NCBI GenBank assembly: GCA_016928435.1
Contig: JAFGKT010000023.1
Location: 1-64,000, forward strand
From: Sedimentisphaerales bacterium
Lineage (GTDB): Bacteria > Planctomycetota > Phycisphaerae > Sedimentisphaerales > SM23-30
Direction: 5' to 3'
DNA: 64,000 nt
Positions 2,531 to 10,426 of this stretch are shown piece after piece. Under the pieces are notes generated by a model, which saw nothing but the letters and a program-made list of their open reading frames with translations, did no database searches and was not told the DNA's origin. Position 1 is the stretch's first letter, and each line of letters opens with the position of its first letter. The translations under genes and the position numbers were made by a program.

Positions 2531-2558
2531 TTGCGGAATTGGATGGTTCTGGTATAAT
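2531..2558 (+). promoter_or_regulatory. Promoter of thiE fusion, probably leaderless
   Basis: -35-like TTGCGG (2531-2536), a 16-nt spacer and a perfect TATAAT (2553-2558). The best ATG follows after seven bases at 2566. The upstream TTG at 2539 would lie inside the promoter and is disfavoured. No TPP riboswitch is recognisable upstream. Confidence 0.6.
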
Positions 2559-2565
2559 TACGCGG

Positions 2566-3609
2566 ATGGATAAACGTGTTTTACGATTGATTGACGCGAA
2601 TTTCAACCGGGCCCGAGAGGCGCTGCGGGTGATGGAAGACTACGCGCGGTTTGTTTTGGATAATAAACACCTATCCGGTGGATTTAAAGAGCTGCGTCAT
2701 CAATTACGTGGTTGTATGGGGCAGTTGAGCGAAAATGCACAATTGTTGGCGGCGCGAGATACGGCCCGGGATGTTGGTACCACAATAAGCACAGAGGCCG
2801 AGGGCTGTCGAGCGGATGCTTTCGCGGTGGTTGAGGCTGCGGGGCGTCGGTTGTCGGAGGCTTTGCGGTGTCTGGAAGAGTACAGCAAGATCGATAATCC
2901 TGAAGTCGCGGCCTCTTTGGAGGCTTTGCGGTATAAGGGGTATCAACTCGAGAAAAAACTGGGCCAAAGTGCCTGTCGCGGGCGTTTCAGCGGGGTCCAG
3001 TTATATGTGCTGCTGACTGAAGAATATTGCAATGGAAATATACTGGATGTTTGTCAGGCGGCGCTGGACGGAGGCGCCGACTGTATTCAATTGCGCGAGA
3101 AAAACAAAAGTGACCGTGAATTGTTGGCCTTAGCTGATGAGGTATGCCGATTGTGCAAGCAAGCCGGGGCTCTATTTTTTATGAATGACCGGGTGGATTT
3201 GGCGGTTTTAGCGCGCGCGGACGGGGTGCATCTGGGCCAGGATGATATTTCTGTTGCCGAAGCCCGCCAGGTAGCCGGGGATAATATGATTGTGGGCAAA
3301 AGTTCACATAATATGGATGAAGCGCTGGCAGCGGTGGCTGAGGAACCGGATTATCTGGCTTTTGGGGCGATTTTTGGCAGCGCTACCAAGCCCAGTGTTG
3401 ATCGATGCGGGGTGGACCGACTGCGTGAAGTTTCGCAAGTTGTCACTATACCGATAGTTGCGATAGGGGGGATAACGGCGGGCAATGCCGGGCAGGCTAT
3501 TGAGTCTGGTGCGACAAGTGTGGCGGTTTGTCAGGCCGTGATTTCCGCGGACGATGTGGAATCAGCGGCCCGAGAGCTAAAATCGAGGTTTTTGGACAAT
3601 CTTGAGTAA
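2566..3609 (+). CDS. thiE: ThiD2-ThiE fusion: HMP-P kinase / thiamine phosphate synthase
   Basis: Two-domain thiamine enzyme of 347 residues. Residues 1 to about 135 match the ThiD2-type domain often fused to ThiE (LIDANFNRAREALRVMEDYA near the start). That family is known as an HMP-phosphate kinase. Residues about 145-345 are the ThiE TIM barrel, with CIQLREKNK, FFMNDRVDLA, DGVHLGQDD, GAIFGSATKPS and PIVAIGGI, which bind the pyrophosphate and thiazole substrates. I chose the ATG at 2566 because a TATAAT box lies seven bases upstream; a longer TTG start at 2539 is possible. It diverges from lipA. The ThiD2 kinase role is by family similarity; the ThiE assignment is firm. Confidence 0.9.
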   Translation: MDKRVLRLIDANFNRAREALRVMEDYARFVLDNKHLSGGFKELRHQLRGCMGQLSENAQLLAARDTARDVGTTISTEAEGCRADAFAVVEAAGRRLSEALRCLEEYSKIDNPEVAASLEALRYKGYQLEKKLGQSACRGRFSGVQLYVLLTEEYCNGNILDVCQAALDGGADCIQLREKNKSDRELLALADEVCRLCKQAGALFFMNDRVDLAVLARADGVHLGQDDISVAEARQVAGDNMIVGKSSHNMDEALAAVAEEPDYLAFGAIFGSATKPSVDRCGVDRLREVSQVVTIPIVAIGGITAGNAGQAIESGATSVAVCQAVISADDVESAARELKSRFLDNLE

Positions 3610-3816
3610 CTATGACGCCGGCGTCAAAAGGTCCGACCGGCCCTGATATTAATAGAAAAACAACGTTTTATCGGGTCGAGCAGTACTTTTGTCGGGAGCA
3701 TCAACTATAAAGGCTGCGATTGTAGTAATTTAGGTAATTTAGGGTCTGTGTCGGCAAAAAAAAGCACAAAAGTGTGTAATATAGAGAACCGGCAAGCCGT
3801 TACAGCGTAAGTAAGG

Positions 3817-4416
3817 ATGGCAGAGCGAGTGAAGCAAGTCAGTGACGAAAAGCTTCTACGGATGTACCATGACGGCGAAAAGAGCGCTTTTGGCCAATTA
3901 GTACATCGTTATGAAAAGGAGCTGTATAATTTCTTGCTTCGTTTTTTAGGTAAAAACTCTTTGGCCGAGGAGGCCTTTCAGGAGACTTTTTTACAAGTAC
4001 ATATCGCATCAGAAAGTTTTGATTTTTCCCGTAAATTTCGACCGTGGTTATATACGATAGCCGCTAACAAGGCTCGTGACCTGCTTCGTCATCATGGGCG
4101 ACGCCCGGCAGTGCATATTACAGCACTGGATGACGATACGGGCAGCAGCGAGCTTTGGGATGTTTTGATGCGGGACGATACGACCGCACCGGAGATATTG
4201 GAGCAGCGTGAAGACCAAGAATTGGTGCGTCATTGTGTTAGTGAGTTGCCGGAACATTTGCGTGAGATTTTGATTTTGGCTTATTTTGAACAGTTGTCTT
4301 ATAAGGAAATGTCGCAGTCATTGGACATACCGTTAGGAACGGTTAAGTCGCGATTACACGCGGCAGTAGCGGCTTTTGCCAAGATGTATAAGGATTCGAG
4401 TGAGAAGAGTGAGTAG
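3817..4416 (+). CDS. ECF-type RNA polymerase sigma factor
   Basis: A 199-residue sigma-70 family protein with only regions 2 and 4, the ECF architecture. Region 2 spans about 20-90 (HRYEKELYNFLLRFLG, AEEAFQETFLQVH, FRPWLYTIAANKARDLLRHH) and binds the -10 element and core polymerase. Region 4 spans about 135-190 (LPEHLREILILAYFEQLSYKE, then IPLGTVKSRLHAAV, the -35 helix-turn-helix). It is followed after 5 nt by a membrane protein with an anti-sigma-like N-terminus, so the pair is probably a sigma/anti-sigma switch responding to an envelope signal. The target regulon cannot be seen from the window. A purine-rich stretch (GTAAGTAAGG) precedes the ATG. Confidence 0.93.
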   Translation: MAERVKQVSDEKLLRMYHDGEKSAFGQLVHRYEKELYNFLLRFLGKNSLAEEAFQETFLQVHIASESFDFSRKFRPWLYTIAANKARDLLRHHGRRPAVHITALDDDTGSSELWDVLMRDDTTAPEILEQREDQELVRHCVSELPEHLREILILAYFEQLSYKEMSQSLDIPLGTVKSRLHAAVAAFAKMYKDSSEKSE

Positions 4417-4421
4417 TATAT

Positions 4422-5450
4422 ATGGCTGAGAGAAACCAAGACAATATGGATATTTTGTTAGCTTACCGTTTGGGTATTGCTGACGATTCTTTGCGCGCCG
4501 AAGCTGAGAAGCTTTTGACTGGTGACGAGGGCCGGTCTTTAGATGAGGCTTTGCAGCGTACATTGAAGCCTTTGGGCGCTTGGCAGGATGTTGAGGCGCC
4601 TAGCGGTTTAGCTGATAAGACATTGGATTTTATCGCTCAACACGAACAAGCGCAGCGGATGGCCAAAGCTTCAGCGGCTATCGCTCAGCGCGGTCGTGAT
4701 CGTGAAAGTCGCGGCCGATGGATACTGGGTTCTATGCGTGATGTTATAGCGGTGGCTGCGAGCATAATGATTGTGTTTTTGGTATCTCAGACTCCTTTAC
4801 ATTATGCCCGGCAGCGCAGTCAAGAGATCGCGTGCGCGAATCAGTTGGGGTCTTTGGGTGGGTCGTATGCCAGTTATGCTTCGGACTACGATGGTTATCT
4901 GCCTTATATGGCGCGAAGTTCCAATGAACCGTGGTATGTGGGCCAGGCGGGCTCGAACACTCGTAATATGTTTTTGCTGATCCGTAATGGATATGCCAGG
5001 CCTAAGGATTTTCTCTGCCCTGGTGTTCCGTTCCGTACGCAAATGGTCATAAGTGTCGATCGCAACACCAACCAAGCGACGATAGTTGATTTTCGATGCA
5101 GTACGGAAGTGGGGTACAGCAGTCGTTTGATGACTGATGGAAGTGATGCGCAAGTGGCATATTTGGGTAACGCGGCGCTCATGGCGGATCGCAATCCATT
5201 ATTCGCTGATTTTGAAGGGCGCGGTGCAAGAGAATTGGATTTGGAACACAATAGCCGACTTCTCGGCGTCAATTCTCCCAATCACGCGGGCCGGGGCCAG
5301 AATGTTTTACGCAATGACAGAAGTGTTCAGTTCGAGCAGGAGCGTTACGCCGGCCAGCGGTTGGATGACATTTATACGATAGAATCGGTAACGCAGTACA
5401 GCGGCACAGAGGTGCCGGCTTCGCAGGCTGATACGTTTATCGCGCCTTGA
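4422..5450 (+). CDS. Membrane anti-sigma-like protein with pseudopilin-type ectodomain
   Basis: 342 residues in three parts. Residues 1-100 are cytoplasmic and hydrophilic, and resemble planctomycete anti-sigma N-termini (LLAYRLGIADDSLRAEAEKL, PSGLADKTLDFIAQHE) without a zinc-binding HxxxCxxC. One membrane span follows at about 105-124 (DVIAVAASIMIVFLVSQ). Residues 130-342 outside resemble the DUF1559/H-X9-DG pseudopilin fold: QEIACANQLGSLGGSYASYA just after the membrane, and NHAGRGQNVLRNDRSVQF near residue 290, where the usual DG is DR. There is no prepilin leader, so it is not an exported pilin. Its position 5 nt behind the ECF sigma gene suggests it sequesters that sigma factor and senses something outside the membrane. 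Function is inferred. Confidence 0.7.
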   Translation: MAERNQDNMDILLAYRLGIADDSLRAEAEKLLTGDEGRSLDEALQRTLKPLGAWQDVEAPSGLADKTLDFIAQHEQAQRMAKASAAIAQRGRDRESRGRWILGSMRDVIAVAASIMIVFLVSQTPLHYARQRSQEIACANQLGSLGGSYASYASDYDGYLPYMARSSNEPWYVGQAGSNTRNMFLLIRNGYARPKDFLCPGVPFRTQMVISVDRNTNQATIVDFRCSTEVGYSSRLMTDGSDAQVAYLGNAALMADRNPLFADFEGRGARELDLEHNSRLLGVNSPNHAGRGQNVLRNDRSVQFEQERYAGQRLDDIYTIESVTQYSGTEVPASQADTFIAP

Positions 5451-7033: not shown

Positions 7034-10000
7034 TTAGTGTACGGGTTGGTTGTTTGGGGCGGCCTTGTTGGCTGATTCATCATTGTCAACGGGCTCTTCT
7101 TCGTCCTGATCTTCTGAGGTGTCTTCGGTCGATAGTTCTTGGTCTTGGTCTATATATTCATCGTCGTCTTCGTCGAAGTCCAGGTCGTCATCATCGTCTT
7201 CGTACTCTTCGTCGTCATCGTCATCTTCTTCGTATTCGTATTCTTCTTCTTCATCATCGTCTTCGTATTCATCTTCGTCATCTTCTTCGTCTATCTCGTC
7301 TTCGTATTCTTCTTCATCTTCGCCTTCATCTTCGCCTTCGTCATTGCCTTCTTCGTATTCTTGTTCGTCTTCGTACATGTTGTTTATTTCTCCGTGTTTG
7401 TCTTGAGGGTTGTCTTGGTCGGATTCTTGGTCTTGGTCATCGTATTCGTTCTGGTCGGCGATTTCGATTTCCTCATCCAGATCCTCATCCACTTCTTCGC
7501 CCTCATCGAAAGGGATGTTCATATGCGTAGTTGGTGTGGGCTTTCTTAGGGTAGTGGTTGGTGCTATGTCTGAATCATCGTTTATGGTGTTGTCTTCGAT
7601 TGGTCCGGTTTTGTTTTCTTGCTCGGCGGTGTTTATGGTTGCGGTGTTGCTTTCGCGTTCTATGTCAGGATCGGTATCGAGGGCAAATTCGCTGACAACG
7701 CCTGGGACCAGCGGTTCATCATCATCTTCATCGTCGGCGATGCAGAAATCGCGTCTGGTGGGAGCGACTTCATTGTACGCGGCTTCGGTCTGGAGTAATT
7801 CGGGCGCAGGCGTGTCGCCGTTGGCAGGGACGGCGGCTTGGGGTGCTTGATCTTCCTGCAGATCACTATAGCCGTTTTGGGCATCCTGGAACATCTGACG
7901 TCGGATGGCTTCGTAGTCGTCCTGGGTTATGAGTACTTCGCGGGCTTGAGAGCCTTTGTATTCGCCTACGATACCGGCGATTGCCATTTGGTCGATCAGT
8001 CGGGAAGCACGCGAGTAGCCGATGGTCAAGCGGCGTTGCAGCAACGATACTGAACCACGTTTGGTTTCAAGGACGATCTGCACAGCCTCGTCAAACAACT
8101 CGTCTTTTTCCATATCCGTGACATCAGCGGTATTGAGCTGCATCAGCTCCGGATTGTACTTCGGCTTGGCTACGTTGGTTAGGTGTTCCATGACGCTGTA
8201 TGTTTCTTCGTCGCTGAGGAACGTACCCTGGGCTCGAATCAGTTCGCTGGTGCCGGGCTGGAGGAAGAGCATGTCGCCTTGTCCCAAAAGGGTTTCGGCG
8301 CCGTTTTGGTCGAGAACGATTCGGCTGTCCATTCGCGCGGAGACTCGGAACGAGATTCTCGCGGGCAGATTACTCTTAATAAGTCCGGTTACGACTGTTG
8401 CCTGCGGACGTTGGGTTGCCAATACAATATGGATACCGACGGCACGGCTCTTTTGGGCCAGGCGAATGATGTACGCTTCGACTTCCTTGGCGGAGGTCAT
8501 CATCAGGTCGGCCAGCTCGTCGATGATGATTACGACGTAAGGCAGTCGCAGCGGGATTTTGGCACGCTCGGCATCATTGGACGGGCAGAAGCGTTTGTAT
8601 ATTTCTTCTTCGCCGAGCTTGTTGTAGCCTTCGATATTGCGGACGTGGGCTTCAGCTAAGAGAGCGTAGCGTTCGTCCATTTTTTGGGTCAGCCAATCCA
8701 GGATTTGTTCGGCTTTGCGCATTTCGGTGACGATCGGGCACATTAGATGGGGGGCGTCGCGGAAGGCGTTCATTTCAACCATCTTGGGATCGACCAGAAT
8801 GAGCTTGACCATATCGGGCCGTTGGGTTAGCAGGATACTGAGGATGATGCTGTTCAAGCAGACGCTCTTACCTGAACCGGTGGTGCCGGCGATCAGACAG
8901 TGAGGCATGGCGGTTAGGTCAATGATCAGCGGGGCGCCACTGGCGTCTTTGCCTAGGAACAACGGAATGTTCATCTTGGCTACTTTCTTATTGGCCAAGG
9001 CGAACAGTTCTTTGATGCGTACTTTTTCTTTCTTGCTGTTGGGGGCTTCGATGCCTATGGTACTCTTGCCCGGTATCGGCGCGACGACTCGCACGGCTGG
9101 GGCACCTAGAGCGCGGGACATATCATTAGCCAAATTGGCGATCTGACTGACTTTGACGCCTGGCGCCAATTGGATTTCGAAGAAAGTGATTACCGGTCCG
9201 GTGTCGGCGTCCACAACGGTCGCGTCGATATTGAATTCCCGGAGGGTTTTTTGCAGGATTTCGCCTTGGGCTTTGACGTGCTTGGTTTGTGCTTTGGAGA
9301 AACCGACTTCCGGGTCTTCGAGCAATTCCAAGGGCGGATACTCAAAGCCTGGGAAGTATTCGTTGGCGGACGCTGAAGCTGGCGGCGGAGCGGCGAGATG
9401 GCCTCGCATTTTCGCCAAGGCCTGACTTACGTTAGCCAATGACATTTCGCGCTGAGCTTCTTTTTCTTCAGCTTTTTCTTGGCGGGCTTTTTCGTCGGCT
9501 TCGTCGCAAGCTTCGTCTTGCTCGTCTTGGTCGGATTCTAGTTCTTCGTCCTCTTCTTCATCGTCCTGGTCTTCTTCTTCCTCCTCATCTTCGTATTCAT
9601 ATTCGTACTCGTATTCTTCGTCTTCGTCCTGGTCTTCTTGCTCCTCATCAGATTCTTCGGGCTGCGGTTTAGCCAGTCGCGGCCAGGATGGCAGTTTGAG
9701 CTTGAGCGCGCCGGTTCCGGCCGTGGCGAGTGATGTGTGGAATTTGCTGAATATGCTAAAGATAAAGCGTGGTACGAGGAATATCAGATTGTCGGCGGCG
9801 AGTATCATTCCCACCAGAAAAGTTGCCGCCAAAACCAGGAAGGTTCCAAAGCCGGCCATTTTGTCCAGTAGGAAATGCCCCAACGCTATGCCCAACACTC
9901 CGCCGTACCCGTGTGAAAGGGTGTTCTCGGCATTGGGCGTTAGGCCTATGCCGTGGTGGAGAAGGTATGAAGATGCCGCGACTACGGCGGCGACCAGGAA

Positions 10001-10297
10001 CAGGCCTATGGTCCGCAGCACCAATTGGTCCAAAGGGCGTCGCACGGCGGTGAGTACAATATAGACTATCGCGCCAATGAGCAGAGGGAGGGTGGCCGGC
10101 CCCAGATAATAATTGCAATAATACGCGATGAAGGCGCCGGCGGAGCCGCAAAGGTTGTGATTTGCGCGCGCAGGCGCCACGTCCGGGTTGGGCCAATCCC
10201 GAACATCAAAACTTAGTACGCTAACCATTACAAAAATGAGTAAGACGGCGATCAGATAAGTCGCGATTTTGGAATGTTTTTGGGTAGGTTCGCTCAT
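7034..10297 (-). CDS. ftsK: DNA translocase FtsK with acidic linker and long acidic tail
   Basis: Septum-located ATPase that pumps DNA at division. With the start at MSEPTQKHSK (10297) it has 1087 residues. About five membrane spans fill the first ~200 residues. A first acidic block (about 217-275, long Glu/Asp/Tyr runs) links to the motor. The motor shows GTTGSGKSV (Walker A, about 468) and VVIIIDELADLMM (Walker B). The DNA-reading gamma winged helix (DELFDEAVQIVLETKRGSVS, GYSRASRLIDQMAIAGIVGE) lies about 727-785. FtsK/SpoIIIE proteins normally end there, but this one continues ~280 residues, most of them acidic (densest at 7119-7400). The ORF is open to 10426, but the extra 43 residues precede the conserved N-terminus and look non-coding. 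Confidence 0.95.
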   Translation of the reverse strand: MSEPTQKHSKIATYLIAVLLIFVMVSVLSFDVRDWPNPDVAPARANHNLCGSAGAFIAYYCNYYLGPATLPLLIGAIVYIVLTAVRRPLDQLVLRTIGLFLVAAVVAASSYLLHHGIGLTPNAENTLSHGYGGVLGIALGHFLLDKMAGFGTFLVLAATFLVGMILAADNLIFLVPRFIFSIFSKFHTSLATAGTGALKLKLPSWPRLAKPQPEESDEEQEDQDEDEEYEYEYEYEDEEEEEDQDDEEEDEELESDQDEQDEACDEADEKARQEKAEEKEAQREMSLANVSQALAKMRGHLAAPPPASASANEYFPGFEYPPLELLEDPEVGFSKAQTKHVKAQGEILQKTLREFNIDATVVDADTGPVITFFEIQLAPGVKVSQIANLANDMSRALGAPAVRVVAPIPGKSTIGIEAPNSKKEKVRIKELFALANKKVAKMNIPLFLGKDASGAPLIIDLTAMPHCLIAGTTGSGKSVCLNSIILSILLTQRPDMVKLILVDPKMVEMNAFRDAPHLMCPIVTEMRKAEQILDWLTQKMDERYALLAEAHVRNIEGYNKLGEEEIYKRFCPSNDAERAKIPLRLPYVVIIIDELADLMMTSAKEVEAYIIRLAQKSRAVGIHIVLATQRPQATVVTGLIKSNLPARISFRVSARMDSRIVLDQNGAETLLGQGDMLFLQPGTSELIRAQGTFLSDEETYSVMEHLTNVAKPKYNPELMQLNTADVTDMEKDELFDEAVQIVLETKRGSVSLLQRRLTIGYSRASRLIDQMAIAGIVGEYKGSQAREVLITQDDYEAIRRQMFQDAQNGYSDLQEDQAPQAAVPANGDTPAPELLQTEAAYNEVAPTRRDFCIADDEDDDEPLVPGVVSEFALDTDPDIERESNTATINTAEQENKTGPIEDNTINDDSDIAPTTTLRKPTPTTHMNIPFDEGEEVDEDLDEEIEIADQNEYDDQDQESDQDNPQDKHGEINNMYEDEQEYEEGNDEGEDEGEDEEEYEDEIDEEDDEDEYEDDDEEEEYEYEEDDDDDEEYEDDDDDLDFDEDDDEYIDQDQELSTEDTSEDQDEEEPVDNDESANKAAPNNQPVH
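7119..7406 (-). repeat. Triplet-rich low-complexity tract coding the FtsK acidic tail
   Basis: About 290 bp made almost entirely of TCN/TTC-type triplets on the plus strand (GAA/GAT/GAG/TAT codons on the coding strand). It encodes runs of Glu, Asp and Tyr. A second, shorter tract of the same kind lies at about 9530-9660 in the same gene. Such triplet runs are prone to slippage and create long false ORFs on the other strand. Confidence 0.8.
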
Positions 10298-10426
10298 GAC
10301 GATGCACTCGATAAATAGGGAATTATTGATGTTAGTATCAACATTATTATCGGGCAAAAGAGGGGAAAAACTGCAAGATTTGGGTGTGGGAGCGGTTAAA
10401 CGGCTGGGAGAACCACTAATGGACAC

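Follow-up and report, generated by a model that had tools for sequence, protein, structure and literature searches.

The window analysed here is a stretch of 64,000 nucleotides from a genome of 80 contigs and 3.07 Mb, whose named relatives are metagenome-assembled Sedimentisphaerales and other Phycisphaerae. Two consecutive genes on its forward strand are the subject of this work. The first one (3817..4416, +) encodes a protein of 199 residues in which both Sigma70_r2 (7.7e-17) and Sigma70_r4_2 (1.8e-15) were matched, and since it combines Sigma-70 regions 2 and 4 within about 200 residues, it is identified as an ECF sigma factor. Concerning NCBIfam, the best models for this product were SigW/RpoE-like, with scores below their cut-offs. 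The second gene (4422..5450, +) encodes a protein of 342 residues, annotated here as an anti-sigma factor with a pilin-type membrane helix and ectodomain, for which the search against Pfam gave no match with the window protein itself. Both open reading frames were confirmed, with 5 nucleotides between the end of the sigma gene at 4416 and the start of its partner at 4422, so the layout and the ECF nature of the upstream gene are as an earlier sequence-only reading had described them. Elsewhere in the window, 2539-3609 (+) encodes a protein judged by eye to be ThiE-like, whose N-terminus is extended by about 150 residues (RVLRLIDANFNRAREALRVMEDYARF), and 7034-10426 (-) encodes one judged in the same way to be an FtsK/SpoIIIE-like DNA translocase, in which very long acidic stretches of low complexity occur, chiefly at the C-terminus.

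The pair is interpreted, with a probability of roughly 80%, as an ECF sigma factor together with its membrane-bound class I anti-sigma factor, under autoregulation. Class I anti-sigma domains are defined by a four-helix layout, which consists of a three-helix bundle plus helix 4 (PMC7406223). The AlphaFold2 model of residues 1-95 (4422..4706, +), the putative cytoplasmic domain, presents four helices at residues 2-17, 22-32, 35-52 and 63-94 with a mean pLDDT of 90.8, and the zinc anti-sigma (ZAS) motif H-x3-C-x2-C is absent from the window protein. When this domain model was compared with the PDB by Foldseek, the top match was RsiW bound to SigW, and RsiW, MucA and RslA made up 14 of the 35 matches (best E 0.94, probability 0.63, none of them formally significant). 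The window protein also matched the NCBI anti-sigma model NF052375 over residues 12-136, with an E-value of 1.8e-4 that is under the cut-off. The identity of the N-terminal half is settled better by the family alignment than by the window sequence alone. In the alignment used for the family matches of both the N-terminal half and the ectodomain (A3, 24 sequences), NF052375 was matched by 21 relatives (best 1.3e-9, under the 100-bit cut-off) and NF010501 by 11, none of which passed the curated cut-off. It is thus the family that bears out the anti-sigma-like N-terminus proposed from the sequence alone.

The second feature expected of a class I anti-sigma factor, a gene adjoining that of an ECF sigma factor, was found well beyond the window. 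Within the family, an ECF gene lies immediately upstream and on the same strand in all nine orthologues. At the level of the order, a match at E <= 1e-44 was obtained in about 136 of 161 genomes (counted by hand), and within the L028-L048 set the sigma gene was present at all 18 loci that could be assessed. The same was observed in the rest of the class, both at the sampled loci that carry the N-terminal domain (41/41) and at further loci (9/9), and none of nine prepilins lacking the anti-sigma domain had a sigma neighbour. For two full-length relatives from the order, L055:5914-6999 and L056:5977-6969, the sigma gene was not found in the upstream sequence of about 5.9 kb. Masked bases occur near L055:5914-6999. 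Among the loci with 6-kb flanks, no neighbour was broadly conserved besides the pair itself.

The search across the phylum revealed two relatives outside the class, L125 and L124. L125 has the same anti-sigma/pilin architecture as the window protein, with a match to NF052375 at 3.1e-14. In its order, probably Pirellulales, a match was obtained in 116 of 118 genomes, most of them over both halves, and the sigma gene was located upstream at all 19 assessable loci. The second relative, L124:1505-2359, has an anti-sigma domain of the zinc-finger type (HLATCPSC; zf-HC2 E 1e-3, NF052375 2.5e-13), followed by an outer part that is T2SSG/GspG/DUF1559-like (E 0.013-0.015 for the T2SSG/GspG-like helix region), and an ECF gene adjoins it too. 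Judged by these domain matches, L124 by itself joins a pilin-type outer half to an anti-sigma domain of a recognised kind. The conservation of the two-gene pair in at least two large groups of Planctomycetota contradicts one of the outcomes that would have spoken against the sequence-only reading, namely a pair that is not conserved.

Directly before the sigma gene there is an ECF-type promoter motif, GAACC-N15-CGTA (GAACCGGCAAGCCGTTACAGCGTA, 3786..3809, +), with GAAC at 3786-3789 and CGTA at 3806-3809. At 51 of 104 loci, the 150 nt that precede the sigma gene contain the pattern GAAC-N15..17-CGT; in the controls, the count was 1 for the reverse strand and 6 for the interior of the gene. The upstream sites concentrate around -40 in the class, and around -75 in the other order. 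We take the GAAC-N16/17-CGT motif to resemble known ECF promoters, such as those of the SigW type. The motif points to autoregulation of the pair. In the rest of the window's own order, the ECF-type promoter appears at 1 of 26 loci, with TATAAT-like sequences there instead, and a possible explanation would be a switch from autoregulated to housekeeping expression in that order. A TTATAAT-like box was observed upstream of the sigma gene in L028-L048. Regarding a wider regulon, GAACC-N15/16-CGTA was outnumbered by the control pattern when searched for in the window's own genome and one relative, and in the own genome the sole clearly well-placed site is that of the sigma gene itself. Over that whole genome (G000), the motif occurs 33 times versus 75 for the pattern read backwards, that is, about half as frequently.

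These data also bear on the idea that the two genes are neighbours by chance and that the N-terminal half has no relation to sigma factors. The weak family matches of the window protein by itself would fit with it, but the pair is kept in at least two large groups and goes with the presence of the N-terminal domain, an ECF-type promoter is common to the loci, and the zinc-type relative L124 has the same arrangement. The explanation was rejected as contradicted by the conservation data, and it retains next to no probability.

Residues 139-342 (4836..5447, +) form an ectodomain of the H-X9-DG/DUF1559 type, supported by phmmer, PF07596 and TIGR04294. The phmmer search was carried out with residues 145-342, a query that excludes the hydrophobic helix, and it retrieved 11 prepilins among 2,461 ORFs (E 1.1e-11 to 2.3e-5), including the same-genome prepilin L016 (E 3.6e-7). 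In A3, PF07596 (DUF1559) was matched by 11 of the 24 members (best 2.5e-4), as was TIGR04294. The anti-sigma profile search matched 114 ORFs and no prepilin was among them. The ectodomain presents several conserved motifs, namely CP (199-200), ADxNP (255-259), NSxNHxxxGQN (284-294) and H288-X10-D299-R300, and residues W171, C199, D256, S285 and H288 are invariant. Homology of the ectodomain and the C-terminal motif, the two characters by which membership of the H-X9-DG/DUF1559 group is recognised, are therefore both present, in agreement with the H-X9-DG-like ectodomain that the sequence-only reading had noticed. That reading had also described a change of DG to DR in the motif. The DR is indeed there, but the spacing between H288 and D299 is H-X10, most relatives have H-X10-DG, and arginine after the aspartate is rare (2/78 relatives, versus glycine in 70/78); for the family as a whole, DR carries no particular significance.

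In the predicted structure, residues 97-155 form one helix of 59 residues, accompanied by a small number of strands; the mean pLDDT is 73, with values mostly between 50 and 90 in the ectodomain. The C-terminal half thus shows a long pilin-like helix and few strands, at a confidence too low to assign a fold, and Foldseek with the full model returned no significant match. Short H-X9-DG-type proteins that have a pilin-like helix, and neither a leader nor an anti-sigma domain, are encoded at L018:1474-2394 (G000:C65) and L011:609-1604.

The single membrane span predicted for the product of 4422-5450 was confirmed as one membrane helix, and it corresponds to residues 103-138 (4728..4835, +). This segment aligns without gaps to prepilins from the same genomes, with an acidic residue at the pilin Glu5 site, often Pro22, and Cys36. 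In the window protein, D107 (codon 4740-4742) occupies pilin position +5, so the hydrophobic helix is broken by an acid as in (pseudo)pilins, and C138 (4833-4835) occupies +36. The window span has Thr-Pro at +22/+23, and proline is at +22 in most relatives. The family profile searched against PDB sequences found Geobacter pilins, PilA and PilE at the span with E5 and P22 in register, these matches being weak (E 0.002 to 0.6). Among 74 class members, an acid is present at +5 in 54, none from +6 to +24, and Pro22 is found in 48; in the other order, Asp5 and Pro22 are both invariant in 15 of 15 proteins. On the other hand, the leader ending in Gly at -1 that prepilin peptidase acts on is missing from the window protein, where the position is Leu, and Gly-1 is scarce among its relatives (8/74 in the class and 3/15 in the other order). 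The earlier statement that there is no prepilin leader calls for a correction: the Gly-1 leader is absent, but the hydrophobic helix of pilins is present and constitutes the membrane span. Because +5 and Pro22 are conserved while Gly-1 is scarce, the span itself is, on alignment evidence, the pilin N-terminal helix, kept although the cleavage site is missing. The protein was not classed as a pilin because the prepilin cleavage site was tested for and is lacking; the pair was placed with ECF sigma factors and their class I anti-sigma factors, as a variant of these.

The position of the pilin helix, directly after the N-terminal domain, together with the prepilin peptidase encoded in the genome, could suggest a prepilin with a very long leader, from which the anti-sigma domain would be released by the peptidase. 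This seems highly improbable. Known prepilin leaders have 6-26 residues and end in Gly (PMC4471445), whereas here about 100 residues form a folded domain (pLDDT 90.8) and the glycine is rarely found. Release by prepilin peptidase was rejected for the absence of Gly-1.

That an H-X9-DG module was recruited to form the outer portion of the anti-sigma factor, as the sequence-only reading had suggested, is supported by the homology of both halves and is also backed by the conservation of the pair in at least two large groups, the ECF-type promoter and the zinc-type relative L124. Most likely, judging from these comparisons, the product of 4422-5450 is a membrane-bound anti-sigma factor, in which the part derived from a pilin would sense the envelope, possibly pilins or a secretion machine. 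When no signal is present, the cytoplasmic domain would hold the sigma factor at the membrane. The outer part could feel a change in the state of the envelope or in the pilin or secretion machine that it resembles, and the anti-sigma factor would then be cleaved or rearranged, probably via an RseP-type protease; an M50 (RseP-type) protease is encoded in the own genome. The freed sigma factor would transcribe its own operon plus further targets, and the pilin part, for want of a site for the prepilin peptidase, would remain unprocessed.

Two special cases of the membrane anti-sigma reading differ in what the outer part would contact. One of them is a sensor of the pilin machinery, in which the anti-sigma factor would behave in the membrane like a pseudopilin that is not cleaved, and the +5 acid and the helix would pair with mature pseudopilins or with the T2SS/T4P platform. 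The retention of the +5 acid in most of the class and as Asp throughout the other order, with no acid elsewhere from +6 to +24, speaks for it, as does Pro22; the cleavage site has been lost, so processing does not account for the conservation of these residues. Moreover, the own genome encodes T2SSF-type platform genes (three ORFs), prepilin peptidase and prepilins. Nevertheless, the operon has no genetic link to T2SS/T4P genes, 20 of the 74 proteins from the class lack an acid at +5, and the conserved residues could serve helix packing or membrane insertion instead. A contact with the pilin machinery is rather unlikely; if true, the sigma factor would report on the pilin pool or on the assembly of the secretion machine. 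A bolder form of the idea, in which the anti-sigma factor would act through much of Planctomycetota as a non-cleavable decoy pseudopilin that docks via its helix and the +5 acid, is likewise doubtful; it would make the sigma factor responsive to the condition of the secretion or pilus machine.

The other special case is a plain envelope or ligand sensor, where the pilin module would be a convenient anchored ectodomain without contact with the pilus machinery. It is favoured by the lack of genetic linkage to that machinery just as the kept +5 acid favours the contact. The ectodomain is also conserved in its own right, as seen in the five invariant residues, and there is a parallel in RsgI, with its swapped outer domains and RseP cleavage inside the membrane helix (PMC12203970). 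However, a plain sensor leaves unexplained the +5 acid in the membrane helix of two distant groups. Its probability is considered to be a little short of even.

Planctomycetes have many H-X9-DG pilins per genome without assigned roles and many ECF sigma factors without assigned inputs. Here, an operon that is kept in at least two large groups, with a visible promoter, connects one H-X9-DG pilin module with a sigma factor, and the pair offers a defined target for asking what planctomycete pilins sense or do. A pilin-type subunit that is not open to processing may control transcription in this case. In the full-text literature searched, no description joins an anti-sigma factor with a pilin or DUF1559; the main planctomycete ECF surveys (PMC7286433, PMC3497475) lay outside the scope of that search. 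The combination of an anti-sigma domain with a pilin-type membrane anchor and outer half is thus undescribed in the literature searched, and a mention in those surveys is possible.

Compared with known systems, the window family is similar to the class I anti-sigma factors RsiW, RskA, MucA/RseA and RslA in its predicted four-helix cytoplasmic domain, one span and outer domain, and in that its gene adjoins that of an ECF sigma factor, preceded by a promoter of the ECF type. It differs from them in that the outer domain and the membrane helix are pilin-derived, and the anti-sigma domain is too diverged for the curated sequence cut-offs. RsgI proteins are partners of SigI factors and their outer domains sense polysaccharide-type substrates. 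RsgI of Clostridium thermocellum, which senses substrates and is cleaved by RseP within its membrane helix (PMC12203970), shares the swapped-in outer sensor domain and the single membrane span, but it has no pilin helix.

On the pilin side, the T2SS pseudopilin GspG and the type IV pilins PilA and PilE align with the helix position for position, E5 and P22 included; in contrast to them, the window protein appears unprocessed by sequence criteria and its ectodomain is of the H-X9-DG branch. The planctomycete H-X9-DG/DUF1559 prepilins (PF07596, TIGR04294) have in common with the window family the acid at +5 of the helix, Pro22 and Cys36, as well as the CP motif and the H-X10-DG-type C-terminal motif. 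Unlike these prepilins, the window family carries an anti-sigma domain of about 100 residues in place of the leader, has no Gly-1, and is genetically tied to an ECF sigma factor.
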